DNA of 64,000 nucleotides, taken from positions 62,001 to 126,000 of the forward strand of contig JAJEKV010000579.1 in assembly GCA_021234155.1 (NCBI GenBank), given 5' to 3'. This DNA is from Isoetes taiwanensis (Eukaryota; Streptophyta; Lycopodiopsida; Isoetales; Isoetaceae). Each line of letters begins with the position of its first letter. The stretch's first letter is position 1. Both the position numbers and the translations under genes were made by a program. Shown here one piece after another: positions 18,350 to 46,232 of this stretch. The notes beneath the pieces were generated by a model that did no database searches, was not told where the DNA came from, and saw only the letters and a program-made list of their open reading frames with translations.

Positions 18350-18380
18350 CATTAGGGCGGATTTGGGGTCTGAAAATGGC
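18350..18380 (+). repeat. Left terminal inverted repeat of the 13.5-kb element
   Basis: Reads CATTAGGGCGGATTTGGGG and continues TCTGAAAATGGCC. It matches the reverse complement of 31829-31858 with one single-base gap. Confidence 0.9.
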
Positions 18381-18985
18381 CTCCTATCAGCCATTCCACG
18401 TCATATTTCCGCTCCCTTTTTCCCATGCCACCTAGGATACCAAACTCTCATAATTACAGTTGCTTGGAATATTCTTAGGAATAAGGGGATTGCACATTCA
18501 TGGCGCCATATGTATTTAATTACATTTGGTTGTCGCACGGTCGATGCAACACGTGGCGCTTCTAAAATGCCACTTGCATTATAGCATACTAGGCAACTCA
18601 TGACGGTGTCTCTTGGTAAGCGTCTTGGCGTCCGCCTTCTACATTTCAAAAAGTTGAATGTGTAGGTTGAAGCTTTGTATCGGTCGGACTTTCATTTCGA
18701 GGCGCATAGTAGCCTTTAACCGATCTTCACTTCATCCTAATACAAGCTTCCGCCCCCTACAATTCCAAATTTGAATTTGCTTAATGTATAAAAAGCGAGA
18801 ATGGACTTTTCGATTTCCATATGCACGTTGCAAATTTCAAAACGAAGTTAATACGGACGTTCGGCTCACGGGCGAATTGTGTTGGGGCATAAAAATACCA
18901 CACCTTGATTTCCGCAAGTGCGATCTACACGATATGGAAGTTGCTTGTTGTCAAATTAAACTTAAACACAAGTGAGGTCGGCACG
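18373..18985 (+). repeat. Direct repeat copy 1 near the left end of the element
   Basis: Similar to 20322-20965 over about 600 bp, from AAAATGGCCTCCTATCAGCC to the segment with AATGGACTTTTC and GGGGCATA. Numerous indels separate the copies. Confidence 0.75.
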
Positions 18986-19132
18986 CACGTGGTTTTTCGA
19001 GGAGGGTTTGGAGTGTTTTTTTTTAAATCCCAATTATCGACATAGTGTGACGTGTAGCATCTTGGTATTAAATAGTATGTTAAATTCGAATTATATCGAT
19101 TGTTCATGTTACGGTTAAACTCAAATCATATA

Positions 19133-19245
19133 GGTTTAGGAATAAGGTTAAAAAGGAAGATATTGGCTATTTAGGAATAAGGTTAAAAAGGAAGATATTG
19201 GATATTTAGGTATAAAGGTTAAAAAGGAAGATATTAGATATGGCT
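19133..19245 (+). repeat. Three tandem units of about 36 bp
   Basis: TTTAGGAATAAGGTTAAAAA followed by GGAAGATATTGG recurs three times with small changes. Confidence 0.85.
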
Positions 19246-19430
19246 CAAATTTGAGATATGCACATAATGGCATGTAATGATGGTTGATAGGATTTGGAAT
19301 CTGAATCATTCCTACGATTTTCACGTCTAATCCAGCCTATATCTATTCCAGCCTAGATTGGCGCCCATTCTCCCCCAATCTCAGCCCAATCTTTGCTAGA
19401 TCCTCCGCCCAATTTCTCTAGTCCATCGCC

Positions 19431-19870
19431 ATGAAGAGATCAGCTCACGGAAGAAATGGGAGGTGTCCTCCAAGAGGCGCCTATTACGGCTGGAAGAGGT
19501 GTTCCCTCCGCAGTTCCCTCCATTGCCCACGGTTCTTGCTCACGAGAATGCCTCGATTCCTCGATTCCCTTTGACGAGGAATCAGAGAATGAGGAATCGA
19601 GAGGAAATTTCGGAGCGGGGAGTTCATCAGTGTTCTTGAATTTTGGATAGGAGATTCTTCAGAGAAAATGAGTGGTCTACCGAAGCGGAGAAGAAGTCGA
19701 AGATGATGAAGAAGATGAAGAAGTTGAAAGACGAATCTCTGACCGAGGAGCTCATGGCGTTAGTTCATGGTACATGCATGTTTTCTTTCTTTTCTTAAGC
19801 ATTCAACTAACGGTTATTTCTTATTTTTTTTTGCGGATGATGAAGCGGATGAATGAAATTTGTTAGGGCG
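19431..19870 (+). CDS. Unknown gene fragment, Lys/Glu-rich coiled-coil
   Basis: An ATG at 19431 starts a short frame. After small frame changes a charged stretch follows (EAEKKSKMMKKMKKLKDES) to a possible splice donor near 19770. The upstream 100 bp is C/T-rich. No family was recognised. Its position and direction suggest the first exon of the rightward transcription unit of the 13.5-kb element. Confidence 0.3.
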
Positions 19871-20321
19871 AGCACCTCTTTTTTTTTTCCTTGTTCTTAG
19901 TCGAGCTTGCCTCCGACTTCTTACCATATGACCGCAAGCCTCCGGGCTTTTTGTTGTGAATAGTTGAAGCCTCGGGCATTTAAATTTACAAAATGATGTA
20001 AAGCCATACGGCCATAAAAATTTTGAATGTAAAAGTTTTTTGCTTCTAATTCCATTTGAATACCTAACTTTTTTTCTTGTACATGTGTTATCACTCTTAA
20101 GTACATAAGTCATCATCCCTTTTCAAAGAGCATATTATTTTCAAGGATCACACCAAGCGAATAGTACATATGCAACAAAAATGGAACACACTAAATTAAG
20201 CATCGTGTGATCCACTTTCTTATTTGTTGTCAAATTAAAACTAAACACAAGTCCTTCGTCAATAGTCTCCCATTTGCATATAAAATATCTATCATTCCAA
20301 GTTATATTATGTTTTATGAAC

Positions 20322-20965
20322 TAAAATGGCCTCCTATCAGCCATTCCCGTCATATTTCCGCCCTTTTTTTCCGTCGATTTGCTTGGAATATTCTCCGGGA
20401 ATAAGGGGAATCGCGATATCTATGAAAGCCATATGTATTTAATTCTCTTGTTGTCGATAGACAGATTGACGCAACACGTGGCGCTTCTAAAAGCCACTTG
20501 CATTATAGCATACCAGGCAACTCATGGCGGTGTCTCTTGGTTTGTCGGATACCAATCATGCGCATCATTAGATTCTTGTCTTGCCCTATTTTCATTTAGA
20601 GTCCATTCCCGCCTTCTACATTTCAAAATTTGAATGTGTAGGTTGAAGCTTTGTATTAGACTTTCGTTTTGAGGTATTTCGCGATTTCGCCTTAAAAGTT
20701 CATAAGCAGGGATCTTTACTTCATCCCAATACTGGGCTTCCAGCCCCCTACAATTCGAATTTTGAATTTGCTTTTGTATAAAAGCATGGATTGTAGGAGA
20801 ATGGACTTTTCCATATGCTGCGTTGCAAATTTCAAAACGAGGTTAGTACGAATTTGAGTCTCAAGCGAGCCCGAATTGTCTTTGGGGCATACAAATTGTA
20901 CACATTCATTTGCGCCAGGTGCGATCCACGCTGGTATGGAAGCTCCAAATGATGTGTGGATAAGG
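20322..20965 (+). repeat. Direct repeat copy 2
   Basis: Second copy of the subterminal segment 18373-18985, about 1.95 kb downstream. It does not include the terminal TAGGGCGG motif. Confidence 0.75.
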
Positions 20966-21249
20966 ATCCAGCCCGACTTCGGGAATATGCTCCAGTCTTC
21001 AATCATAAAAAGAGGTCTAAAAATAAGAACTTAGACCTCGACATGTTGCGCCTTTGCGAGCTCAAAAAGTATCGACATCTGGGCGGATGGCGGTTTATAT
21101 CCATTGGATCCGTTGAGTGGCGAGGAAACCGTCATTTCGGGACGTTTCAAGTTTAGTCCGATTTTGTGGTGGCGGTAACTCGGCCTCTTGGGATATTGTG
21201 AGAGATTGAGAGGATGAAGGCATTCGAATCGAATCTGATTCCTTGAGAT

Positions 21250-22340
21250 GAGTACGCTTCAGATTGTCACAAGAGAATTATAACTTAAACCAGTGACTCT
21301 TTTTTCTCGCTTCATTACTCCAATCGTGATGAAGGAAAGGAATGACTTGACTTGGGGAGGGAAACTTCTTTGAGATACGAAGTGGAGAAGTCCAAATTGG
21401 TGATAGGGCGGCTGCAAGAAAAGATCCAAGAGCTCGAAAGAGCAAACTTTGGGCTTCAATGTAGGTTAAAGAATTTGAAGAAAACACCCCTTAACTTGCG
21501 AGAAAGGAAGAAGCATTATCGGCCAGATAGAGGCGAAGTTTGGATCAGGTGCATTCAGACGAAGTGGTCCGACCACAAGGTCCGTTTACAACACTAGCAA
21601 AGGCGGTTAAGATCTGGGGAAACTAGAAGCAATCTTGGTTACGTGGTGAAGAACCTAGCGGCGAAACGGGGAGATAGTGGACATGATTTGTCAGCCCTAC
21701 AACTCTCCTCTCAAGAAGATGGTATTGGAAATGGTACTAGGGGAGATCTACAAGAAGTTAGAAGCGACGGATGTCTGATTTGTTTGTGATGATGTAGGCA
21801 TCGATGAGGCTTGGTTACCGTTCTCTATTCAAGCCATTCCACGGCGTTGAAAAGAATGGGCACAAAAAAAGTATTAGCTCCACGTCCACAAATTGTCGAG
21901 AATACAAGGGTTACTAGGACAAAGATGGTGTATGCCATATTAGGAGAGATGCACCCGTTGAATGTCTTTGGTCACGCCATAGCCATAAAAGATAAGAATG
22001 GCAAGGATTGTTGTGATATAGTTGGAATGAATGAGCGCTTAATAATCTTTGGGTTGACCTGGTTACTCTCTTACAATTCCTTGTCAAATATTATGACTTA
22101 ACGATTCTTGAGAAACTAATGGTGAGATTGAAGTTTGCATAAAATTGGATGAAATGGAACCCGACCAAGTTTGAGAAGTATGAGAGGGTATCCGTTGTCA
22201 TCATGAATAGAGCAATTGAGAATGCAATTGCACATGCTAAATCAAAGAGCAACAAGAATAACAAAAAAGATGTAGAGGTTGTGGACGAGGAGAAGAAGCG
22301 TCTGCGGAAAAATGGTTCTCATGTCAATCGAAGATGACAC
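21250..22340 (+). CDS. Unknown coiled-coil protein, frameshifted
   Basis: Open segments include 21352-21597, with a predicted coiled coil (KLVIGRLQEKIQELERANFG), 21811-22101, and 22149-22337, which ends Lys/Arg-rich (EEKKRLRKNGSHVNRR). They lie on one strand in order and probably belong to one gene broken by indels. No known domain was recognised. Confidence 0.35.
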
Positions 22341-22522
22341 ACGGTGGTTAGGTCTCTTTAAAGTTGAAAAGAAACCCACGAGGTTTTGAAATGGGTGTTC
22401 AATCAAAGCCCGACATCCAGGAGTCTAATATCTAGATTGAGGGAGGGAAAAATTACAAGTAGATCACTATGGATCTTACAAAGTAATTTTCACTTGGCGT
22501 CTGATTTAAAAGCGAGAAAGCA

Positions 22523-23434
22523 ATGTACAACATAAGTGGAGGAGGACAAGGAACATGCAAAAGTTATGCATCTTTGCAATCATGCAAGGAAGTCAAAATC
22601 TTGGGAAGGCTGTTTCAACCTTGTCCCTTAACCAAGCAAATGCTCCTAATAGAGGAGAAGAAGATCCCAAGTTCCATGGCATTTTCCCATTCCATTAGAG
22701 AGGGTTCATATCGCACTTTGCGGCTTTGTGAGAATCATCGACAAGATGATATTTTTGAGCTCTTGATTAGGTGTGGAACATTTCGGACACAAGAAGAAGA
22801 GAGGAAGGAATTCGTAGAGTTGAACATGTTCTATCGAAGCGGAGGTTTGCATGGTGGCAATGTAAGATTAGAGCTTTCGATGAAAGCGGGCGGGGAAGAA
22901 CAAGTGTGCCTCGTAAGGTGTCAATTGGAGGGAAAGCTCGGCGGCTTCATAAAAGAATCATAGAGAGCTACGAGCGGAAACCGGATGGGAGAAAAGGTCT
23001 ATGAATTTGGAAAATTGCTGGTTGATGCGGGCGGGACCGCCTGAGATGGCGTTCGTTCGGCATTGAAAAAAAAGCATGGGATGCATTATGCGAATTGTTC
23101 CCATACATTGGAGAATGGACCTCACAAGAGAAGATGCAGAAATGTTAGTGTACAAGCGAATAACAAATTTATTAAAGCTTTCATAGGCGCATGGGGGAGA
23201 GTGAAGTCACGCACTACTTGCACATCTTTTGGGCTCATGCACCTTGGTTTTAGGAAGTATGGAAGCCTAGCGATTGTGGAGTGCACAAGGCATGGAGAAG
23301 TCGCATAAACAAGCTAAAATAGCCTTTCATCGTAACACTCAAAGGGGGTGGAAATGTGGGAACCAACCCTCTAAACGGATAATGAGTGGTTTTATAGAAG
23401 AGGCGATGGCTAAATCGACAAGAAGGTAAGCTTT
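22523..23434 (+). CDS. Possible transposase C-terminal region, frameshifted
   Basis: The most telling part is 23190-23430. One frame reads HYLHIFWAHAPWF followed by KYGSL; the next frame reads WSAQGMEKSHKQAKIAFH then RNTQRG. The order 'YLH...KYGSL...QG-E-K....K..F...T.RG' resembles the C-terminal part of several eukaryotic cut-and-paste transposases, by general recollection and without a search. Upstream, 22523-22963 is a 146-residue open frame with no recognised motif. The position, in the rightward unit of a TIR element, fits a transposase. Confidence 0.35.
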
Positions 23435-23814
23435 AAGGAGCAACCCAGAAGTCGTAAACACCATTGGCATAATCTTTGAGAAAAAGCGGAAAGTTGCTTG
23501 GCAAAATTCTAGGGCCCCACTAGCATGCATAGCGGTGGAGATCTAAGAGACAAAGAATCGGTAAAAGTATACTTGTAATGTGTAGCATGTTCACACGCCT
23601 TGAAGTACTTGCCTCAACCTTGTTTGCACAAGTTGTAAGCCGGCGTCGTGTGATCTTATTTGTATCATCTGGCCTTGTGAGCGAGCGTGGAGTTAAGCTA
23701 TTGCTTACATTTATGTGGCTGGCGTCGTGTGAAGCTTTACAAGATAATAATAAAAAGGGTTACTTTTGATTAAAGTTGTGAAAGATGTTACATTGAAAAA
23801 CAAAATACAACGAC

Positions 23815-24286
23815 TCATTGTTGCTCGGTCGCGAGCTCTTCTTCATTATCTTCATCATCATCATCAGCTCCGTCCTCGTCTTCGTCTTCATCTCTTCCCC
23901 TCAAGCGAGCAATCACCCTATCAAGCGTTCCTCCAATCTGTCCACCATCTCTTTGTACATGTCGCTCTCTGTCCCAATAGCACAGCGTGTTCTTACGCTG
24001 AATTAGCATCCTCGTTGCCGTCATAACCACCTCGGTCGCGGTTGTTGGGGCATGTCATCTGTCCGACCTTCTATTCAAGCGCTTTGATTTGCCTCTCTCG
24101 GCTCTGAAGCATGAGAAGGTTGAATTCATTCTCTTCTTCTTTACGCTGAATTGTAGCGGCGTTTTCCTTTAGAAGATCATCTTGCTCCTTCAACCTCTTC
24201 ATTAGAACACCCAACACTATGTCGGAAGGGTTCTATCCTCTTCGCGTTTTCCATTATCGGGGTTGAGGATGTGGAGGCCATAGATG
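23815..24286 (-). CDS. Small coiled-coil protein with acidic C-terminus
   Basis: The minus-strand ATG at 24286 starts MASTSSTPIMENAKRIEP. After a frame change comes a coiled coil (VLMKRLKEQDDLLKENAATI), a second heptad-rich segment (ESDMYKEMVDRLEERLIG) and a tail that is largely Asp/Glu, ending in a stop at 23815. About 150 residues, with at least two frameshifts. Related in plan (MAS start, MKR(L/F)KE coil) to the genes at 25760-26126 and 26646-27046. Acidic tails occur in histone chaperones, but no such fold is shown here. Confidence 0.5.
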
Positions 24287-24736
24287 ACAAATGGGAGGGG
24301 CGTTAAGATTATAGAAGTGAGGAGCAAAGACTCTAACCGGTGGAAGGAGCACATGCAAGGACCTCAATTTATACATATTAGCGCTTGAACATATTAAACA
24401 CACTTTCGGCTCTTTGTCGCGCGTGTCGGGGATTACGTCGGTTGTCGCTAGAAACATTTAATGTCTTGTCATTTGGAACACATTAATAACTATTCTAACT
24501 ACAGCGTATATCACACCACTTGAAATCGCACACGAGCTTTAAAACCCTATGAAGGGTTTAACCCGTGTGATCTATCTAATCATTCTCTCTACCACGGATA
24601 TTGAAAATTAAAAATAGGAAGCGTAATATTCGGTACATTTGTCAAAAAACTTTTCCCATTGAAAAATAAAACCAATTACAAACATTAAAAAAAAAGCGGG
24701 CCCCTCTAGGAGGAGGCCGATGCCTATGATCGTAGG

Positions 24737-25138
24737 GCAAGCTCTTCACGGAGGCGGTGATAATTTTTCTGCTCCTCCAACATGATTACTGCCCCTTAAC
24801 CACGTTCTCATATTCCATAACCTTATCTTCCCCGCTCATCGAGTTGGGCTGGGCAGCCTCTCCAGCCGATTGCGGCCCTAAGCCTCTCTTGGAGGTTATA
24901 TATCGTGTGGCGCAATTAGCGGTCTAAAGGCAACCAGCCCGGTGATTGTCGCGCACTAAAATCACCTCCACGTAGAAGGCGGCCTTTTCCTCTGCGCCTA
25001 ACCCGGCTTGGCGGCGTCTTCATCATTCTTTTTCTTTTAGAAGGCGGATCCGTTCCTTCCTCCGGTAGCGAATGTTTGAATTTCCTTGACCAAAACTTGA
25101 GACAAGATCTCGGCGGGGATGGGCGGGCTGGAGGCCAT
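24737..25138 (-). CDS. Small MASS-type protein of unknown function
   Basis: Starts MASSPPIPAEILSQVLVKEIQ at 25138, is Lys-rich in the middle, and ends with an amphipathic segment (LEEQKNYHRLREELALRS) at about 24737 after frame changes. A TATATAAA-type box lies about 90 bp upstream on the minus strand. It shares the MASS start and C-terminal coil plan of its neighbours. Confidence 0.45.
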
Positions 25139-25227
25139 TGAAAGTGATGGGAGAAACGAGGAGTGATGATGAGGCGGATGTGGTAGAAACGAAGATGGCG
25201 GATAGGAGAAGACAAAGGCCTCAGGCG

Positions 25228-25236
25228 TTTTATATA
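25228..25236 (-). promoter_or_regulatory. TATA-box candidate
   Basis: TATATAAAA on the minus strand, about 90 bp upstream of the ATG at 25138. Confidence 0.5.
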
Positions 25237-25759
25237 GAAACTAGAATCACGTTGGAATCTACGGTTCGCGACTACCAGATAAAGTTGTGTAATAATCCTC
25301 ACGAGGTGAAATTATAGCATGCAATTAGGCAGCGGTAGCCTATGTTAGCATCATGGGATCCGTCATATATCTAGCCGTCTTTGTATGCGGGCCGTACAAA
25401 AACGATGTTATTGTGGCGGCGCATGCCCGTCCTTGGCATGGCGTTGTCATCCACAAGCCCGTATGTGAATAGGCGTTGTCATCCACATGCAAATTAGCAT
25501 TTACACGCAAGTTATATCACATAATCTAGCTAGATATTTGTGTTACATACACTTTTCCATTAATAAATTATGAATTTATACATACAGCGAGGTTAATGCG
25601 TTGTGGAGATCATCTGACGAAATCCATTGATTGCTACCTAATTGCAAGAATGGCATTTGGCGTCGTGTGATCTTTAATAAAACAAAACAAGAGAAGCAGA
25701 TAGAAGCAAGAAATAGAGCAAATTTTTCTTTGAAACAAAAAAAAATATATATACAATGG

Positions 25760-26126
25760 CTACGGATCTTCATGATCCTGTAGCTTTTGGCCGTAAAGCT
25801 GCGTTCTCATCCTCGCATGATTTCGAAGCTTCTTCTCCATATCTTCTAAGCGCTGCGAAATGTTGTGTGCGATTAAAAGCGCCTCGACCCTACGGCTATT
25901 GGCCTCTCGGTTTTTGGTTAATGTTGCTTTGCGAGCTCAAGGTCACCGCTCATGCGGCCGACCCCTAGTAATTCTAACACGTCCACCGCCTCCATCTTCA
26001 CCGGCGGCGAGGCGGCTGTTTTTTTTCGTCGTGAACCTCCTTGAATCTCTTCATCACCACGGCAAAGGGTGATGTCGAGTGAAACGGTTCTGGCGCGATA
26101 AAACTGGAGGAGGATGAAGATGCCAT
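25760..26126 (-). CDS. Small coiled-coil protein, tandem paralogue 1
   Basis: The minus-strand ATG at 26126 starts MASSSSSS, then a SPF motif and VMKRFKEVHDE. After frame changes it ends LQDHEDP-stop at 25760. The downstream paralogue has the same start, central VMKRFKEIHDEN motif and HEDP end. A TATAAATAG box lies about 100 bp upstream. The shared reading frames across paralogues argue that these are real genes despite indels. Function unknown; a dimerising coiled coil is likely. Confidence 0.55.
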
Positions 26127-26227
26127 CGGAGGAGAAGGCGGAAGGCGGAAGGCGGAAGGGGAGAAGATGAAAGAAGAAGGCGGAAGGCGGAAGAGGATCG
26201 GAGGTCGAAGGCAAGATAGAAAGTCTT

Positions 26228-26236
26228 CTATTTATA
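26228..26236 (-). promoter_or_regulatory. TATA box of paralogue 1
   Basis: TATAAATAG on the minus strand, about 100 bp upstream of the ATG at 26126. Conserved in position with the box of paralogue 2. Confidence 0.65.
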
Positions 26237-26645
26237 ACGGGGATTTCATAGTAGCTTGAGTCACACGAATGGCGAAGGATGCAGGTGGGTCGGGGAAAAT
26301 CGCAGATTACTTCGGCGTCGTGTGAGGAAAAAGGACCGTTACTTCTTCTAGCGTCTTTTCTTCGAAAGCTTCGTGTGATAATTTTTATTGATAATTTCGG
26401 TGATACAATCTATACATAAGTAATTTTCTTGATACATAACTAAAGATAGAACTTCTCATTGAAGCAAAATAGAGCGGCATGGAGATCACACGGCGAAATC
26501 CATTGATTGCTACCTAATTGCAAGCAAGGCATTTCGGCGTCGTGTGATATTTTAATAAAGCAGAACATACATTGGAACAACGGGATAGATAGAAGCAAAA
26601 AATAGAAAACTTTTCTTTGAAGCAAAAAATAGATAGATACAGCGG

Positions 26646-27046
26646 CTAGGGATCTTCATGATCCTCTAGCTGATTTTCATGTCTGCTGGTGGCCCGTAAA
26701 AACTGCGTTCTCATCCTCCGCCTGACTCGGGCTTCTTCTCCATATCTTCTAAGGCTGCGAAATCATGTGGCGGTTTCAAGCTGCCTCGACCTGCGACTCG
26801 TAAGCCTCTTGGTACATGGCGAATGTTTTCCACGAGCTCAGCGTCTCATTTTCGTCGCGGCGGCTCCCTCGTGAAGGCTAATCGTCGACCGCCTCATTGT
26901 TCGGCGGCGAGGCGGTTGTTTTCATCATGGATCTCCTTGAATCTCTTCATCACCCTTTGCAAGGGTGATGTCCGCGGGCAGCTCGGGGGCTGGGGAGTGC
27001 TATCTTGGCGTGGTAAACGCTTGCTAGAGGAAGATGATGATGCCAT
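26646..27046 (-). CDS. Small coiled-coil protein, tandem paralogue 2
   Basis: The minus-strand ATG at 27046 starts MASSSSSSKRLPRQDS, with VMKRFKEIHDENNRLAAEQ in the same open frame. After frame changes it ends with HEDP and a stop at 26646. About 880 bp separate the start codons of the two paralogues, and the non-coding spacers are also similar, so this is a tandem duplication. Confidence 0.55.
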
Positions 27047-27134
27047 CGGGGAGGAAGGTGGAAGGCGGGCCGGGAAGTAGAAAGATGGCTGAGGGAAGGC
27101 GGAGGCGTCGGAGGTCGGCGTGGACATCGGTCTT

Positions 27135-27143
27135 CTATTTATA
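27135..27143 (-). promoter_or_regulatory. TATA box of paralogue 2
   Basis: TATAAATAG on the minus strand, about 90 bp upstream of the ATG at 27046. Confidence 0.65.
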
Positions 27144-27518
27144 ACATGAGTCACCACAGTTGCTTCACGCGTCGTGTGAGGAATAAATAAATTAATTGTC
27201 TTTTTCCAATAATATTTCATTTCTTGAGATAGATATCACACGGCGAAAACCTAGATATATGAAAATCGGTGATGTATTTTGGCGTGATGTGAATAAATAC
27301 AAATAAAATAATTTTTATTAGGAATTTCGGAAGGACAATCTGTACATAAATAATTTTACCGATACAAGTTGGAAAACATATAACTTCCAATTTCTCAAGC
27401 TTCGTCGTCAATTTCATGCTCTTTCAATCCCCTGCCGCACTGATCCAACAAGGCAATGACTTCCATGTTATCGACCCCAGCTTCCAACCTTGGGTGAGTC
27501 AAGCCAGTGACTAAAAAT

Positions 27519-27896
27519 TTAACATATTGCTCGCCCATGAACCCGGCAGTCGTCAAAATATTGTAACACAACATCCCGCCGAATTGCTATCACCCTTTCA
27601 GTGTTTGATGCCAATTGGGAATGGTTCCCGAACATGCATAATGCACGGAGGTAATAGACAAACTCTGCACCCTTTGGACTGAAAGTTCTGCTGAAGACGA
27701 TTATCTCCCCATTAACGAATCTTGAGATATATCTTAACAATGTAGAGTCCTTCAATCTTTCTGTCCCGTGCGTGCGGCATCGGCAAGAAAAATCATCTAC
27801 TTCCCACAAATAAGAACCCTCAAGATTATCTTCTTCACATTTATCCTCATCTACCGGGCTTATCTTTTTGTGATTGGTGAAGGGCACGCCAAACAC
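27519..27896 (-). CDS. Unknown protein segment, 125 residues
   Basis: An uninterrupted frame with balanced composition (segments such as YLWEVDDFSCRC and FSRTFSPKGAEFVYYLRAL). It looks like genuine coding sequence. Coding signal may continue upstream to about 28170 in other frames. No domain was recognised. It lies in the leftward gene series of the 13.5-kb element. Confidence 0.4.
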   Translation of the reverse strand: MFGVPFTNHKKISPVDEDKCEEDNLEGSYLWEVDDFSCRCRTHGTERLKDSTLLRYISRFVNGEIIVFSRTFSPKGAEFVYYLRALCMFGNHSQLASNTERVIAIRRDVVLQYFDDCRVHGRAIC

Positions 27897-28397
27897 TGTA
27901 GATCTGTTGGCGACTTTGCGGAGGCTGGAATTCTTCTTCCGTTGGTAGATTAAGCCTCATCTTGAGCAAATCGAGACTCCAGCCTCTCATATGCTTCTTT
28001 AAGCTTTATAGCATTCTTGGGTATAATTAGATACTTCAAACATCTCTTTGTCCAAATCCTCTTCAAAATCTAGGCCTAAGTTTACCCATTCGGCCAAAGT
28101 CTTGATAAGCTCGTCTTCCTAGCACACATTAAGTAACATAGGCGGGTTCCTCGATTATATCCTTAGCAATAAGTATTCTTTGCCTTCCACTAAAATTGGC
28201 GTTATGTCGAGGACAACTTCTTTTCATCCTCATCCCCATCCTCATCACCTTGAATCATCTCCCCTCCTCTGGTTCACCCAAGGCCGGGCGTCGAAGCTAA
28301 AACTCCTACATTCTTGCTCTTCTTCTTGTAGATCTATCTCCATTTTACGTCATAGTCGGCATCATCACACATAATGACCCCCCTTGGCTTAAAGATT

Positions 28398-28929
28398 TCA
28401 TTGTTTCGGTGTATCTTCGGGTTTGGCGGCGAGAATGCAATAACTAGCAAATGCAAGCGGCAAAGAAATAAGATACCTTCTTAAGCACAAGGGCGCAGCC
28501 GGGGAGGAGCCCGTTTCGCAGCATTCTTGAAAAACATCTTCCCTGTTTGCAAATGGGAAGCCGCCTCCTCTAGAGCTGGTTTTGGAATCCACGAGCGGGG
28601 ACATCGCAAAGGGCGTCTTGGCGAGACCAAGCGGTGCGGGTGAAAGCTAAAGCAACCTCGCGATAGCATCAAGCTCGCTACTGTTTGCCATGATGTCCAA
28701 CTCCTTGCAATAGAGCGGATAAATCGCGGTCGGCGCAACTTCCCTCGTTGTCATGAGGGGCGGATGCATACCATTCGGGAACTTCACATAACAATCCATG
28801 GCCGAAACAAGCAGCGAAAACAAAGAAGATGTTTAGGAGGCGGTAAAAATTTATCACTTTTGAACTCAAGTAGCCGTTATCGATTATGAAAGGGGACACG
28901 GCCGTTGTGGGGAGATTTGTCAGGTACAT
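28398..28929 (-). CDS. Unknown gene, frameshifted
   Basis: The minus-strand ATG at 28929 starts MYLTNLPTTAVSPFIIDNGY, followed by a hydrophobic stretch (LNIFFVFAACFGHGLL) that could be a membrane segment. After a frame change the frame runs from MANSSELDAIARLL to a stop at 28398. No family recognised. The telomere-like repeat sits just upstream. Confidence 0.3.
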
Positions 28930-28930
28930 T

Positions 28931-28954
28931 TTAGGGTTAGGGTTAGGGTTAGGG
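28931..28954 (+). repeat. Four TTAGGG units
   Basis: A perfect run of four TTAGGG hexamers. The typical plant telomere repeat is TTTAGGG, so this short interstitial run may be coincidence. Confidence 0.9.
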
Positions 28955-29126
28955 TTGGATCTGGACGCGAAGACTACTATGTGCAACAAAAAGCACAATG
29001 CTTGCTGGCGTCGTGTGATCCTCGCATTATAAAAAAAAAAAAAAAAATGCAAAGTCTGAAGCTAGGCTTCTAAGAAAAGAAATGGACTAAGAGATTAAGC
29101 TTATAAAGCCATTGCATTAAGAAATA

Positions 29127-30010
29127 TTATACATATGAAAAAAAACACAAAGGCACTTCACGGCCTTTTTTACGGGGGTCTTTCTTCTTGTTGTATTGAC
29201 CATAAAATTTTGACCATAGTTTTCGGGATCCCTTATCGTAAGGCAGGCGCATGTCCTTGGGCATGGCGGTCACCAGCTTGGCATGTATTCTGCAAGCTGC
29301 GAGTCCTCGAGCAGGCCGACACCAAGCGCTTCAAAGCCATTTGAAAAGCATTTAAAGGCGGTTGCTTGAATTATGCTTGGTATGATGTATCGCACCACAC
29401 TCTTGCAGAATCTCTCTCACGAGCACGGCAAATGGGAGGCGGAATGACCATCTCGGTGCTCTTCGATACTTCTTAATCTCATGGCTCTTTAATACCGAGG
29501 CCGTCTTCCGCTTCCGGCCTCTACCCTCACCCACCCGGCATTTGGAGCACTGTTGCTCGGCCGACTCTTCCGGCGCCTCCTCACCCGACATCTTGTTCCT
29601 CGGCCCGACTCTTCCGGCCGTCTCCTCCCCATTCAGGTCGCCTTCCCTTTACGGCGTTGGGCCTCCTCCTCGATTTGAAGGTCTGGCACCTCCACGGGAG
29701 GAACAGGGGGGGAAGGGAAAAGAGCAAGAAGAGGCGGCTGCCCAATAATTAATCCGGCATCATATTACGCTCGCCCGGTCTCTCACATTTTCATCCTCGT
29801 CTCCGAGGCAGGAGTGCACCTCCCTACTTACTCGGGGCTGCTTCTCCGTGATTACGTCATGCGGATTTTCTTTTAGGGTCTTACGTTAGGCATGGTGGGA
29901 GGAGGAGAATCTCTATCGAGAGACTTCAGAGTCAGATGAAGAAGGCGGACTAATGTAATCACGGCCTTACACCACGGATGGATCCTTGCGGTTTGCTTAG
30001 TTCTTGCCAT
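29127..30010 (-). CDS. Divergent histone H3 encoded by the transposable element
   Basis: The minus-strand ATG at 30010 starts MARTKQTAR, identical to the first nine residues of canonical H3 including lysine 4. A tail of at least 40 residues follows; a possible intron donor lies near 29888. The exon ending at 29352 carries a basic linker (GRGRKRKTASVL), then EIKKYRRAPR and LPFAVLVREIL, matching H3 alpha-N and alpha-1 (EIRKYQK..., LPFQRLVREI). Shifted frames then give EALGVGLLEDSQL (H3 EAYLVGLFEDTNL) and CRIHAKLVTAMPKDMRL (H3 CAIHAKRVTIMPKDIQL), then a basic tail to TAA at 29127. A TATAAAG box lies 20-25 bp upstream of the ATG. At least two frameshifts are present; they may be sequencing errors. 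The tail-to-core distance is longer than in normal H3. Family identity rests on several collinear motifs and is strong; deposition into chromatin is inference. Confidence 0.85.
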
Positions 30011-30029
30011 GGCTTCTCGGCGGATGGCG

Positions 30030-30036
30030 CTTTATA
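30030..30036 (-). promoter_or_regulatory. TATA-box candidate of the H3-like gene
   Basis: TATAAAG on the minus strand, only 20-25 bp before the ATG. It would give a very short leader, so a start further upstream is possible. Confidence 0.4.
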
Positions 30037-30605
30037 CTACGAACAACGACAAAAATAGACAAGCTGGCAGGAGATAAATAGTAAAAACAGAAGTTAAAGT
30101 AAAATATGATGGTAGCGTTTTTAAATAATTATACGGAACCCTAAAAAAATATCGGACAAAATCACGGAACCCTAAAAAACATCAGACAAAAACACAAATA
30201 AAAACCGAGATTCAAAGCTAGCCGATAGACAATTTCTTGTTGATCGCGAACTCACTAAACTTTACATTTCCCTCTTGCACGTAACCAACCTAATGCCATC
30301 AATAAAATAATGGGTTAAATCGACAATTTCCTCTGTCTCCATTAGCACTCTTAGCTCGATAATGGCCATTAAGCTTTCCATGGTGGCGTATAAATGACTT
30401 CCTCCCCTCTCCATACTCGAATATCCCGCGCCGGATTGTCTATTATGGTCCTCAAGCGGCTCCCAAAAAGTTGTGCAGCCTCTCTTTTTACTGTTTCCGC
30501 CGTTCTAGTTGACAATTAGCGTATAAATATTGTTTTGGAAGAAAGTATCCCGAACTTAAAGGAGGACTTAACTTCTGGCGGACACTCTGTTAGTTGACCG
30601 GATGA

Positions 30606-31640
30606 TTAGGTGGAATCGAACATCAGTCGGAACCAAAAATAAGCCATCCACAAAATCGGCGGGGGAGAAAGCACGTATATGTCTTGGAGCTTTTGAACTT
30701 CTGCGCCATGGAATATGTTAGCAAATACCTCAAGCGGTGTGAAGATTTTGAAACTCATCCTCACGCCTCCGTTTTCGAGACATTCCGCTTGCACCTCGTC
30801 GACCATGCATTTCTTCATTGCAATTACATTGTTCTCATTAGTGCGTGGCTTACAAAGTTCACTTAAAGGGGCAATTCAATAGGCCTCAAGCTCGGTTTCG
30901 ACCTTTACGTTATAATCATGTCAGTAAAACCGGATGCCTATACCCTTAAGGTCACGGCATCCATACCTTGGAAAAGGACAATTCCGATGTCTATGTGATA
31001 CGACAAGTACACTACTAATACTTTTCGGCGGAATGACATCCACGACGTCGATAAACATAAACACTGCACAATAAATTTGTTTGTAAACGCGTGTCAGCGA
31101 AAAGAAATGAAAAGATAAAGAAGATCACCGACGCGAAACTATCTCTACGCAGTTAAGTAGCTGACGGCTAGCTTCGCGTCGTGTGATCCGTTTAAGGTGG
31201 TTACCATTTGCGGGCAATTTTGGGAAGCTGTTTTTGGTGGAGATTAGCTCTTTGGCCATATCAGAAGGGGTATATGCATGTCGTATTGTTATACTTTCCA
31301 CTTTCCGGCCGCTAGAATTCAACTTGAACTCTTTTATCCTACCTATCAATGTGTCACATACGTCGATCGCCTTTATTAAGCAACTCTATGCTAGCCCTAG
31401 TTGATGGCAGCATACTCACCTGAACCTATTGAGACAAAACCTCCCACTTCTTGACCTTGGGAGTTACGTAAATGGGGCAAGAACACGAAATTACAGGAGA
31501 CATGGATTGCGGATGAGGAGTGAAAGGCGGGAGGATGCGTAGGTGGCCGGGTGTGATCTGAAGTTTGGCGCCAAAATTTGACAAGGGAGTTGGTGGCAGC
31601 GGCGGTGGCGGTCAAAGTCACCATTATTTTGGGCGTGGCG
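30606..31640 (-). CDS. Unknown spliced gene, minus strand
   Basis: Open segments in order are 31397-31624 (ending at a good splice donor, G|GTGAGT near 31424), 31125-31349 (IKEFKLNSSGRKVESITIRH) and 30606-30818 (MVDEVQAECLENGG, then FKIFTPLEVF). They probably form one multi-exon gene at the right end of the element. The first lies within 250 bp of the right TIR. No domain recognised. Confidence 0.35.
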
Positions 31641-31828
31641 ACTCAAAAAATACAGGCCATTAAAATGGTTGCAATAAAAGCGCGGGCATCCCCTATGAAA
31701 ATCGCCATGTGGATGCCAAGTAAAGCACTGCTCATCCTTCTACACCGCCAAGTATCGCGACTTTCGTAAAAAGGCGCAAACTGATTGGTCTGGCGAATCG
31801 GCGTGGAAATCTTTAGCCCAAGATAAGG

Positions 31829-31858
31829 GCCATTTCAGACCCCAAATCCGCCCTAATG
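31829..31858 (-). repeat. Right terminal inverted repeat of the 13.5-kb element
   Basis: Reverse complement of the left terminus. The remorin intron resumes directly afterwards (CATGTTTTAGATAGTTC), matching 10116 onwards. Confidence 0.9.
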
Positions 31859-41840: not shown

Positions 41841-42249
41841 TAAGCTTGCCAAAGCATTGAATTCACAAGTGGCATCCCAAAGGATAGTAAATCTTGGTTC
41901 CCAATTCATTTGGAATGTGGTTGTGTGTTCCCAATACTCCCAACCCACGACCCCAGTATGATGAAATGTTGACAACAACACCCAATTTTGGCCTGGTTTT
42001 AGAGAAGGGTACCCAAATTTAATTCGTGGTTGTGAGCGGTAATGGTTAGATGTAGAAAGGTTGGCGCATGTTAGAGCGACTTTGATGCTACGTTTTGTGG
42101 CATCAATGTTTTGCTAATTCGCGGAATGTTCAATCCTCGTGGCATGTCTCTAGTAGTAGAGATTCCAAAAGCTTATAGAGCAACTAGTAATTGTGCCCAG
42201 CGTTGCTGGGCGTAGGTTGAAAGCATGTGAATGTTTTGGGCCACAATAA

Positions 42250-43520
42250 GGAAAACCCTTTCCCTTTCCATTTTGCTCTATCCCGCATTTCACTTTTCCC
42301 CATTTTCTCTATACTTTTCTCTTTTTTCTTTTTCTTTTCTTCTTTTTTTGCATACATGTTTTTTTTTCTCCCCTCCCCTTTCCTTTCCTTTCCCTCTTCT
42401 TTTTTTTCGTTTTCCCTTTTATTGATAGTGTTTTTCCCTTCCCTTTTCCTCCTTTCTCCACGATTTCCCTTGCCTTTTTTCCATGACCCTTTTCCCTTTC
42501 CCTTTCCTTTTCCTTTTCCCTTTTCCCACCCTTTTGCTCTTCCCTTTTTTTTCTTGCCTATTTTCCCTTCCCTTTTCCTCCTTTTTTCACCTTTTCCCTC
42601 TTATTTGTTCACGTGCCCTTTTTCACTCCTTTTTTTACGTCGCTGGGCTATAAGAGATTTGCCCAATTTTCTCTCCCTCTTTCTTCCCCTTTTCTGCTTT
42701 TCTTTTTGCCTTTTCATTTTTCCCTTACCTTTTTTCCCTACCTTTTCTTTCTTTTTGTCCTCTACCTTTTTCCCATTTTTTTTCTTTCTTCCTTTTATTT
42801 TTTATTTTTCTCTTCTTTCCTGTTTTCCTTTTACTTTTATTTTTTTTCCTTTTTTTTCTCTTTTTCATTGTATTTTTTTTTTACCTTCCCCTTTTTTTTT
42901 TTCCTTTTTCTTTTACCTTTTACATTTTCCCTTCTTTCCATTTGTTCTTTTTGCCTTTTTTTTCCCTTTCCTTTTAACTCCTCCTCCTCTCCCCCCTCCC
43001 CCCTACCTTTTTGTTTATTCTTTTTTCCACTTTTCCTTTGTTCCCTTTTTACTTTTTTTTCCTTTTCTCATTTTGGCCTTTGTTGACTTTTTCCTTTTTT
43101 TTCTTTTCCCTTTTTCATTTTCCTTTTTTTCCCCATTGTTTCCTTTTTTTCCCTTTACCCTTTCACATTTTTTTCCTCTTCCTTTTTCACTTCATCGTGT
43201 CCTTTTCACCTTCCCCCGATTTCCCTTTTTGACTGTCGGATTAAGTGAATTTCGGTCATCGGCCCTTTTACCTTCCCTTTTTCTATTTTCTCATTCCTTT
43301 TCACTTTTTCCCTTTCCCTCCTTTTCTCCCTTCCCATTTTTGCATTTTCCTTTTTTTTCTCATTTTTTTTTTAATTTTTTTTATATTTTCCTATTTCTTA
43401 TTTTCCCTTTATCCCCTTTTTTTTGGCATTTTCCCCTTTCCCAGCCCTTTTCCCCTTTCTCTGTTTTCTTCTATCTTTTTCTCTTCCCCTTTAACTTTTC
43501 TCATTCCACCCTTTTGGCTA
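42250..43520 (-). repeat. Polypyrimidine tract of Helitron E (polypurine on its own strand)
   Basis: About 1.3 kb of C/T, mainly CCCTTTTTCC-type words. On the element strand it is A/G, as in Helitron D. Long open frames (Phe/Ser/Leu/Pro) are composition artefacts. Confidence 0.95.
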
Positions 43521-43666
43521 TCAGATTGAGTGAATCGTATTGAAGCAACAGTCAAGATGAATTATTGGCTAAAGACATGCACACATCATCTTCACCGTTG
43601 CTCGATCAAATTCTCGACCATCCGATCTAGGGCAAGATTGAAGACACACGGTATAACATTATAATA

Positions 43667-45733
43667 CTAGGAACGGTGCCCAGCGTTGCTCGGTATAAGC
43701 TCATAACCTATAAATGATACACTACAGTGATGAAAGGGGCAAGCATGAATAACCTAGAAGTACTCCATTGTTAAAGTAGTCGACACCGTTTCTCTTTCCT
43801 TTTCCCATTTGCTATACCCCGCTTTTATACTTTTGCTTTTTCCTTTTCCTCGTACGTGTTTCCTTTCCTTCCTTTCTTTTTTTCCTCTTCTCACTTTCAG
43901 TTTTATTTATAAACTTTTTCCTTCCTCTTTCCCTTCATTTCTCCACCCTTTTCCTCTTTTCCTTTTCACCATGCTTTTTTCCTTTTTCCCCTTCATTTTC
44001 TTTTGACTCTTCCGTTTTCCCATAACCTTTCTACACATTTTTCCTCTTTCCTTTTCTCTTGTCCCCATTTTCCTTTTTTTCCCACCCTTTCTTTCTTTCC
44101 CCTTTTTTTCCCTCTCCTTTTTTCTTTTCCCGTGACCTTTCGTCCTTCCCTTTTCCCATTTCCCTCTTCCCCTTTTTCTCGTGCCCTTTTTTCCAGGTTC
44201 GCTTTCACCCTTTTCATCTGTCCTTTTTTTTTTTCTTTCCCTTTCCCTTTTTCCCTTCCTTTCTTCCCATCCTTTTCTTGTTCCCTTTTTGCCCTTCCCG
44301 GTCCCCATCTTTTCCTTTTTTCTCCTCTCTCAACCCTTTCCCATTCCTCTTCCCCTTTCCCAATGCCCTTTCGCTCCCCTTTTCCATTTTCCTTTCCCTT
44401 TCCCTTTTCCTTTTCTTTTTCCCATGTCATTTTTCCCTTCCCTTTTTCTCTTTCCTCACCGGTTCACACTTCCCCTTTTTTCCTTCCCTTTTTCCATGCT
44501 TTTTTTCACTTCCTTTTCCCCCTCTCTTTACCCTTTCCCGTTCTCTATCCCTATCCTTTGTCTTGATGGACTTGTTTTTCCCTTTCCACATTTTCCAACC
44601 CTTTTCCTCTTCTCCTTTTTGTCGTGCCTTTTTTACCTTTCCTTTCCCCTTCCCCCCTTCAGTTTCTTTTCACTCCCTTCTTTTCCATGCCCTTTCCAAC
44701 ATCTCTCTTTTCCCTCTTTCCTTTTTTCCTCAACCTTTTTCCCCCTTTTCCCCACCCTTTCTCTCTTTCCCCCTTTTTTTTTCTCTTGTCCTTTTTCCAT
44801 GCTTTTTTTCTACTTTCCTTTTCTTCTTTCTTTCCCTTTTTTCCTGTACCCTTTTCCCCTTCCCTTTTCCCTTGTCTCTATTCCCCTTTCCCTCATGCCC
44901 TTTTTCCCATGTTCCCTTTCCACCTTTCTGCCTCCCTTTTTTATTTTCCTTTCTCTTTTCCATTTTCCCATGCTCTCTTTCTATTCCTTCTCCCCACCCT
45001 TTTCTTGTTTCCCTCCCCTTCCTTTTTCCTCCCTTCCCTTCCCTTTCGTCCTCCCTTTTTCCCTCCTTTCTTCTTTTCCATTTTCCTTTCCCTTCTTCCA
45101 TGCCATTTTTCCCTTCTCTTTTCCCTCTTCTCACACTTTTCTCTCTTCCATTTTTTCCACCTTCTTTTTCTTCCTTTTTTCCATGCTTTTTTTCGCTTAT
45201 CCTTTTCCCCTTTCTTCGCCCTTTCCCTCTTTCTCTTTTTTCTGTGCTCTTTCACCCTTCTCTTTTTCATTTTTCCTTTCCCTCTTCCCTTTTTTTGGTG
45301 CCTTTTTTCCCAGGCTCCCTTTCCTTCTTCCTTTTTCTAATTTCATTTCCCTTTTCTCATGTGCTTTTCCCCTTCTCTTTACTCCACCCTTTTTCTGTTA
45401 CCCTTTCTCCCTCCTTTTTTCCTCCTTTTCCCACCCTTTGCTTCTTTTTCCCTTTTTCCCCTCGTTTTCCCCTTCCTTTTTCTTTTTCTTTTCCCGTATC
45501 CCTTTTCCCATGCCATTTTTTCCTTTTTTCTCCCTTTCCTCACCCTTTTCCACTTCCCTTTTTTCCCATGCCTTTTTACCCTTTCACGTTCCCCTCTCCT
45601 CAAGACATCAAAACATAACCAATCATAGTGGTCAAAAGTCGTGCGATAAATCTCTGCCTTTGGATGCAATTAGATGATCTCGGTCATTCAAATTAGGGCT
45701 TGATACAACACGCTAAAACATTATAATATAAGA
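43667..45733 (-). mobile_element. Helitron F, inserted in the 5' end of Helitron E
   Basis: 3' end CTAG at 43667-43670 with a damaged hairpin (GCCCAGC/GTT/GCTCGGT on plus). 5' end AACATTATAATATAAGA at 45717-45733. It inserted between A43666 and the T now at 49319, both belonging to Helitron E. About 2.07 kb, mostly polypyrimidine on plus. Confidence 0.88.
43790..45600 (-). repeat. Polypyrimidine tract of Helitron F
   Basis: About 1.8 kb of C/T with frequent CCCTTTTTCCC and CATGCC words, giving long spurious frames on plus. The element strand is polypurine. Confidence 0.95.
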
Positions 45734-46232
45734 CTAGTAATGATGCCCAGCGTTGCTGGGCATAAGTTGGAAGTATGCAAATCTTTTGACCGCAATGGGA
45801 AATGCGTGCAATAATAATCTAATTTTTGTAACCTATTATTATGATAAAAATATCTAAAGATTTAACAACATCTAAAAGCTTCTTCATGTTAGATAGTTCT
45901 GCATTGGTATCTGTGATGCATCATTAGGGCTTCATCCCATATAATCATGCTAGTCTATATTGTTAACTTTGCCAACTCGGACTGCTTTGGAATATTGCAT
46001 GTTGATGTCTCATCTATGTTTATCGGTATCTTGAACCTTGAATGCGTGAGTGTATGCCGCCCTTTGGTTGAGTGTTGATCGGCTGTGCAAGGTTTTTATA
46101 GGAGTGTGATATTTTGCTCGGGCATCGCTGGAGGTCCTCGAGCTAGAAGTGTGAGGGAGTGTTATTTGTTTTTGCAATGTTCGTGTATATGAGGGTCAAG
46201 TTGACTTCATTGCATTGTCAATGTAAATGTGT

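Follow-up and report, generated by a model that had tools for sequence, protein, structure and literature searches.

Transposons are already known to carry anti-silencing proteins and chromatin enzymes, and the closest known case of a transposon with a histone gene is that of fungal hAT elements. In Pseudocercospora fijiensis and related fungi, hAT transposons contain a histone H3 that was captured as a transcript or retrocopy, and the copies except the original gene have been inactivated by RIP; in Pyrenophora tritici-repentis there are tens of potentially active H3 copies (PMC6710886). TET/JBP dioxygenases are carried by fungal transposons of several lineages and have been proposed to help them escape silencing (PMC12730594), and plant VANDAL elements encode VANC anti-silencing proteins, which bind noncoding regions of specific element copies (PMC10398659).

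We describe here a TIR transposon with an H3-like gene (element A) in a window of 64,000 nucleotides from Isoetes taiwanensis (C307:62001-126000 in a 1.66-Gb assembly), together with an LTR retrotransposon family of the same genome (family B) whose first ORF contains an H3 core. An rbcL gene adjoining atpB marks the genome as that of a plant. Like the fungal hAT elements, element A is a DNA transposon that has amplified an H3-like sequence to hundreds of copies; unlike theirs as described, its H3 has diverged and been restructured, a number of copies keep it intact, purifying selection acts on it, and it resides in a plant host and in another type of element (PMC6710886). The resemblance to the TET/JBP elements lies in one chromatin-related cargo gene occurring in unrelated transposon lineages, but their cargo is an enzyme acting on 5mC, whereas here a histone is common to a TIR element and an LTR retrotransposon (PMC12730594). 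As with VANDAL and VANC, a plant transposon gene would counter host silencing, although for the H3 of element A this role is only proposed, whereas VANC is known to bind noncoding regions of specific element copies (PMC10398659). Family B resembles plant LTR retrotransposons with additional ORFs (PMC7264820), yet its own additional ORFs precede gag in the sense orientation, and one of them has an H3 core.

The word "histone" is absent from the main text of three papers that treat additional ORFs or captured genes in plants (PMC7264820, PMC11963269, PMC13317346), and phrase searches for transposon-encoded histones returned 0 papers. In this search, whose scope took in little of the subscription literature, we found no plant transposon that has a histone among its conserved components. 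The initial annotation, made from the sequence of the window, knew of no described plant transposon family with an H3 cargo; our search agrees, and the novelty is regarded as provisional. Provisionally, then, an H3-carrying transposon is known in fungi, and a conserved, restructured H3 common to two element classes was found nowhere in the literature searched.

Results

Structure and mobility of element A

The H3-like gene lies inside a 13.5-kb TIR element, as had been proposed at the outset, and the coordinates of the element and its features are collected in Table 1. The TIRs are 33 bp long and 91% complementary. Seven further full-length copies, with lengths of about 13.5-13.8 kb, align colinearly with that of the window and have the ends CATTAGGGCGG...CCGCCCTAATG in common, with a one-base difference near the right end in the copies on C216 and C1100. 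Five of the seven were chosen with an H3 match already known and two, on C1054 and C920, by their ends alone; the H3 region is present in both of the latter. When the two flanks of the element in the window are joined, all 278 bases match contig C1012 of the same assembly, which is free of the element and has one extra T; over longer flanks the identity is 98.5-99%. C1012 represents either an allele or a duplication of recent date. Because this near-identical contig carries the empty site (AAAAAA^CATG), element A has been recently mobile: its insertion at the window site, or an exact excision there, is recent. These copies and the empty site show element A to be a high-copy, recently mobile plant TIR transposon; the first-look candidates for its right end (1074) and left end (1725) are rough guides and not copy numbers.

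Table 1. Features of element A in the window (window coordinates)
Feature	Position	Strand	Description	Basis
Element A, TIR DNA transposon, 13.5 kb	18350..31858	.	begins CATTAGGGCGG, ends CCGCCCTAATG; without target-site duplication	TIRs, 7 colinear copies, empty site
Left terminal inverted repeat	18350..18382	+	33 bp	identical first bases in 7 other copies
Candidate transposase gene	21062..23574	+		tblastn of L090 (2e-68) and L091 (1e-30)
ORF2	27398..28799	-	about 480 aa, acidic stretch; homologous to family B ORF2	tblastn of copy L086, E=2e-115
Histone H3-like gene	29158..30010	-	H3 tail, linker, H3 core and C-terminal extension; reading frame broken in assembled window copy	about 290-aa ORF intact elsewhere (L077, L078, others)
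H3 histone-fold core	29244..29594	-		tblastn with canonical H3, E=3.9e-5; Pfam Histone in L032 (2e-16) and L077 (9.9e-31)
MARTKQTAR (H3 residues 1-8 with K4)	29984..30010	-	next residue I, not K9	eight aligned intact or nearly intact ORFs
Right terminal inverted repeat	31826..31858	-	33 bp	one-base difference near end in 2 of 7 other copies

The TIRs of CACTA/EnSpm elements start with CACTA, and their target-site duplications are of 2-3 bp. The TIRs of element A start with CATTA, no duplication is seen in nine of the ten copies inspected, and 0 bp are duplicated at the empty site. The tenth copy, on C1100, has a possible 3-bp repeat (GGC/GGC), and at the C216 site the comparison with related repeats is too imprecise for a duplication to be read. 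The plus-strand gene is probably the transposase, judging from its place and its conservation. Its relatives have open frames of 526, 544 and 877 aa, with conserved acidic residues, a CxxC motif and GMEKSHK near the C-terminus. No Pfam transposase family was found in the window or in L025, L089, L090 and L091; weak matches of the C-terminal part to RAG1 (E 0.025 for a piece of L025; 0.11 in PDB for L089) were not confirmed by profile, and scans of IMG/VR with the H3 and transposase proteins gave no relative. The 877-aa frame occupies positions 358-2991 of L091 and is 51-54% related to the candidate transposase of element A; it perhaps represents an undescribed plant group.

Several further features were observed in and around the element. 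Left-subterminal segments within positions 18399-20863 of the window repeat about 1.9-2 kb further inward at 81-97% identity and may be transposase-binding subterminal repeats, and between ORF2 and the transposase side (25604-26972) there are repeats spaced 876-896 bp apart, 77-89% identical in three matched stretches. The copy of element A on C1018 (L025) may lie in or beside a host gene, as coding sequence for a mitochondrial-carrier domain (Pfam 2.3e-7) in the first 160 or so bases of that locus directly adjoins the element. Elsewhere in the window, long strand-biased tracts are found at 6001-8000, almost pure purine (GC skew 0.82, AT skew 0.82), and at 42001-46000, strongly pyrimidine-rich (skews -0.48 to -0.68).

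Element A encodes a diverged H3 variant

In the window copy, the codons for the reported N-terminus MARTKQTAR are present, with the ATG at 30010; the initial annotation had placed the gene correctly and left unstated its strand, which is the minus strand. The stop near 29158 was placed by eye, by comparison with the intact copy L077. The frame is interrupted several times as assembled, and a Pfam search of the six frames of the window copy, a profile check that had been suggested, found no family, histone included. The H3-like core segments that had been described are nonetheless supported by the tblastn match of canonical H3 (29594-29244, despite the frameshifts) and by the L077 protein, whose match to 30010-29165 has E=3e-37; the part of it from residue 19 on matches 29960-29166 at 8.5e-41. 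With these E-values, together with that of 3.9e-5 for canonical H3 and the Pfam Histone match of L077 (9.9e-31), a chance match to H3 was rejected. A short telomere-like TTAGGG array is found downstream of the gene at about 28931-28958, and other copies have it too, with PNPNPN or TLTLTL in their translated frames.

A DNA search with the H3 region gave 528 first-look candidates, and the check for H3 in other copies of the element had a clear outcome: all 40 scored matches, the window included, cover the whole 813-base query at 87-100%. MARTKQTAR is intact in 20 of the 21 copies read (the window and 19 of L001-L020), and L016 has one substitution in it. As assembled, tail and core share a frame in none of these 21 first-read copies. 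With 69 residues of the H3 of element A as protein query, the search yielded 4744 candidates, 150 of them scored, with 20 in open frames of at least 250 aa. Fourteen loci were read for intact H3 ORFs, 11 of them chosen for long open frames, and in seven of the fourteen a single ORF spans the tail and the entire core (L077, L078, L079, L080, L081, L085, L087). Part of the core is missing from L084, the frame is lost within the core in L072, and tail and core are not both in one frame in L071, L073, L082, L083 and L086. L077, on C1072, is also among the DNA matches to the H3 region. The splicing that had been suspected near 29888 is not needed, as a single ORF runs through tail, linker and core in the intact copies.

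The H3 protein of element A has about 290 aa and consists of MARTKQTAR followed by IHPGGVRPGDYISPP, a Ser/Asp/Pro- and Arg-rich linker, the H3 core and a C-terminal extension (DPEYYGQNFMAEYNKKKDPPEKRP in L077). Compared with the canonical tail, ARTKQTARKSTGGKAPRK...ARKSAP, residues 1-8 are kept and the sequence from K9 onward is replaced. Among eight aligned ORFs, residues 1-8 are unchanged but for single changes in L079 and L087, K4 is kept in seven (T in L087) and position 9 is I in all eight. The protein is without K9, K14, the K27 motif and the ARKS motif, and the linker contains ARKGK. The full H3 fold from alpha-N to alpha-3 is recognized by profile in L077 with 107 bits, and the best phmmer matches in PDB are H3 variants (all of the 60 shown among 176 matches; E 9e-31 to 2e-28). 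Its core shares 53-59% identity with host H3. Since the residues at canonical R63 and Q68 are changed and loop 1 is four residues longer than in host H3, entry of this protein into nucleosomes is not certain. The linker is new relative to H3. The initial annotation had called the remainder of the protein highly divergent; much of the divergence of the window copy is found at CG/CHG sites and is probably base-call error.

Between the diverged copy L087 and four other copies, the H3 of element A is under purifying selection, with a dN/dS of 0.17-0.24 for the core at dS 0.44-0.53 and of 0.29-0.40 for tail plus linker; the C-terminal extension (0.33-1.12) is under little constraint. Values from six pairs closer than those with L087 scatter more, at 0.14-0.90 for the core and 0.45-1.20 for tail plus linker. 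The core figure is biased, as part of the H3 core served as the query by which the loci were found; tail and linker lie nearly all outside that query. A transduplicated host fragment would be near-identical to its source, free of selection and decaying; here the core is far from identical to host H3 and constrained, as given above. The proposal that H3 is a component of the element, open to refutation had other copies lacked it or had it been a recent host fragment, has thus held, with 40 copies, intact ORFs and purifying selection, and it is well supported that element A encodes its own diverged H3 variant as part of the element.

Frame breaks in young copies concentrate at CG/CHG sites

In an alignment of 21 copies, 1032 of 1745 columns are invariant, and most substitutions and small indels fall into 78 hot spots, which are mostly short. 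The eight full-length copies show a column deviation of 14.5% at up to 1 bp from CG or CHG sites and of 1.25% at a distance of at least 30 bp. The H3 gene of the window differs from L077 by substitution at 76 of the 468 compared positions that lie no more than 2 bp from CG/CHG and at 2 of the 144 that are at least 6 bp away; all 23 short indels (up to 4 bases) fall within 2 bp of such sites, with one 7-base gap in addition. The other 20 young copies differ from L077 at 11-24% of near and 0-4.9% of far positions and have 15-28 short indels each, of which 0-2 are far. For control, intact L078 differs from L077 at 6 of 497 near and 0 of 144 far positions and has no indel; intact L085 differs at 24 of 458 and 0 of 143, without short indels. 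In the diverged intact copies L081 and L087, 11% and 22% of near and 14% and 14% of far positions differ, with one short indel each. For six family B copies the near and far rates are similar (2.4-9.3%), and none of the six has more than one short indel.

Deamination would alter cytosine alone and create no indels; this pattern fits base-call error in methylated DNA, along with some real CG/CHG mutation. Part of the excess is probably real, since the intact L085 differs from L077 only near CG/CHG and without indels. Against base-call error, the family B copies come from the same assembly and are free of the pattern. Presumably, polishing failed on methylated copies that are nearly identical to one another. 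By this pattern the young, window-like copies look methylated, and hence silenced despite their H3 gene.

An LTR retrotransposon family with an H3 core

A genome search with canonical H3 gave 9022 first-look candidates, and the scored matches comprise 15 full-length host-like genes (96-98%) and 135 others (71-86%), most of which are without internal stops. In nine of ten family B loci read, ORF1 has 404-413 aa and consists of a new N-terminal domain, a basic linker and a C-terminal H3 core, and L052 holds the core only; a 409-aa ORF matches Pfam Histone at 1.3e-40. Family B is a Ty3/gypsy-type LTR retrotransposon in which three extra ORFs precede gag in the sense orientation. A single copy was tested; its LTRs are 1.6 kb long and 95.6% identical, and its pol, split in two frames, contains protease, RVT_1, RNase H, integrase zinc-binding and C-terminal domains and a chromodomain by Pfam. 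The integrase catalytic core is absent from the Pfam listing of that copy, and gag gives a weak Pfam match (7e-5), just under the cut-off. Two of the loci, L053 (5022-9477) and L070, have an intact H3 core in one of the three pre-gag ORFs, and first-look candidates of the family run to thousands.

Between two family B subfamilies (14 pairs), dN/dS of the H3 core is 0.025-0.06 at dS 0.49-0.83, and that of the rest is 0.07-0.10 with dS near saturation, so that the H3 gene of family B, like that of element A, is under purifying selection. As a check on choosing loci by H3, the N-terminal domain alone was used as query (3617 candidates, 150 scored, eight loci taken). All eight have an H3 core by tblastn; six are nearly perfect, three of which (L062, L065, L068) are places already read via the H3 search, and two are damaged. 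The family B protein starts with MAITK or MANTK, which resembles the MARTK of H3, and is without MARTKQTAR. In one subfamily (L047 and L050) the ORF1 linker contains ARKS, which is possibly a relic of the H3 K9 region, and the other subfamily has AHKS or AHKA. H3 K9 in its canonical setting is kept in neither element A nor family B, and the fold is kept in both.

ORF2 lies downstream of the H3 gene, on the same strand and in the same order, in both elements. The ORF2 of element A (L086) matches that of family B by BLASTP at E=5e-11 over 238 columns, and further comparisons agree; for the gene upstream of H3 in element A, comparison with the N-terminal domain and with ORF2 of family B gave no support for homology (hhalign E 0.62 and 0.21). 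The H3 of family B was rejected as the direct source of that of element A, which has KYQ and STE as host H3 does, where family B has KFQ and STD or STQ. Since ORF2 is shared and yet the H3 of element A does not derive from that of family B as it stands, either the two elements hold a module that goes back to one old origin or H3 was acquired on two occasions next to the ORF2 common to both. That two unrelated element classes each pair H3 with a homologous neighbour gene argues strongly for use.

Discussion

Our main reading is that the element-encoded H3 variants form nucleosomes resistant to H3K9/K27-based silencing, to which we assign a probability of roughly 0.45. As the evidence is anatomical and evolutionary, this is a role that we infer, and the roles proposed in the initial annotation, marking or protecting chromatin or mimicking an H3K4 substrate, are likewise conjectural. 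In such a scheme, the H3 of element A would pair with host H4 and enter nucleosomes on the element, or wherever ORF2 or the transposase directs it. With no methylation at K9 or K27 of the element H3, both the loop of H3K9me2 and DNA methylation and the marking of H3K27 would be interrupted, and through the kept tail residues 1-8, K4 could still be read or methylated. The element would then stay transcribable, which would amount to anti-silencing by histone replacement. Against this, the loss of K9 and K27 could be mere divergence of the tail, given ARKGK in the linker of element A and ARKS in one subfamily of family B. More tentatively still, two unrelated classes in one plant might share an accessory module, namely a self-encoded H3 without the K9/K27 silencing sites and its partner protein, that builds non-silenceable nucleosomes.

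It is somewhat unlikely, though it deserves weight, that the H3 instead serves the transposition complex, its fold, with H4 or alone, packaging or bending element DNA or docking the transposase or integrase on chromatin and histone chaperones, with silencing unchanged. A fold kept while the tail is replaced would suit such a role, as would the fusion of the family B core to a new domain upstream of gag, the chromodomain in pol and the ORF2 partner common to both elements; what it leaves unexplained is the exactness of H3 residues 1-8 in element A, both in 20 of the 21 first-read copies and, single changes in L079 and L087 aside, in the eight aligned ORFs. In a tail decoy, a free MARTKQTAR N-terminus would titrate H3K4 readers, methyltransferases or demethylases and nucleosome entry would not be needed. 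The K4 epitope is indeed the only conserved part of an otherwise new tail, but the whole histone fold is also under selection and family B does without MARTKQTAR, and we consider a decoy unlikely.

We regard it as quite improbable that the gene is passive cargo, a host H3 that was picked up in the distant past and decays while it is carried along, as in the fungal hAT elements, whose described history is the precedent (PMC6710886). The failure of all 21 first-read copies to show tail and core in one frame as assembled would agree with decay, but those breaks concentrate at CG/CHG sites, and the core is too far from host H3 to be called near-identical. Chance capture of a host fragment is disfavoured because there are intact ORFs under purifying selection and because H3 with a homologous ORF2 recurs in a second element class; recent capture or decay is disfavoured on the same grounds. 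Least probable of all, and by our estimate very remote, is a gene derived from CENH3 that directs the element to centromeric chromatin or mimics it. The lengthened loop 1 and an "IP" after alpha-N are both found in CENH3 sequences; however, maximum-likelihood placement with CENH3 sequences has 56% support only, none of the 60 PDB matches shown (of 176) is named CENP-A, all being H3 variants, and the canonical tail residues 1-8 are kept.

For the study of such elements, our comparison of young and intact copies carries a warning: an apparently broken frame in a young, methylated repeat may be no more than an effect of the assembly. If the main reading is true, histone replacement encoded by a transposon would be a new kind of counter-defence, and the elements of Isoetes taiwanensis would open to direct test the question of whether a genome parasite can change the nucleosomes that silence it.
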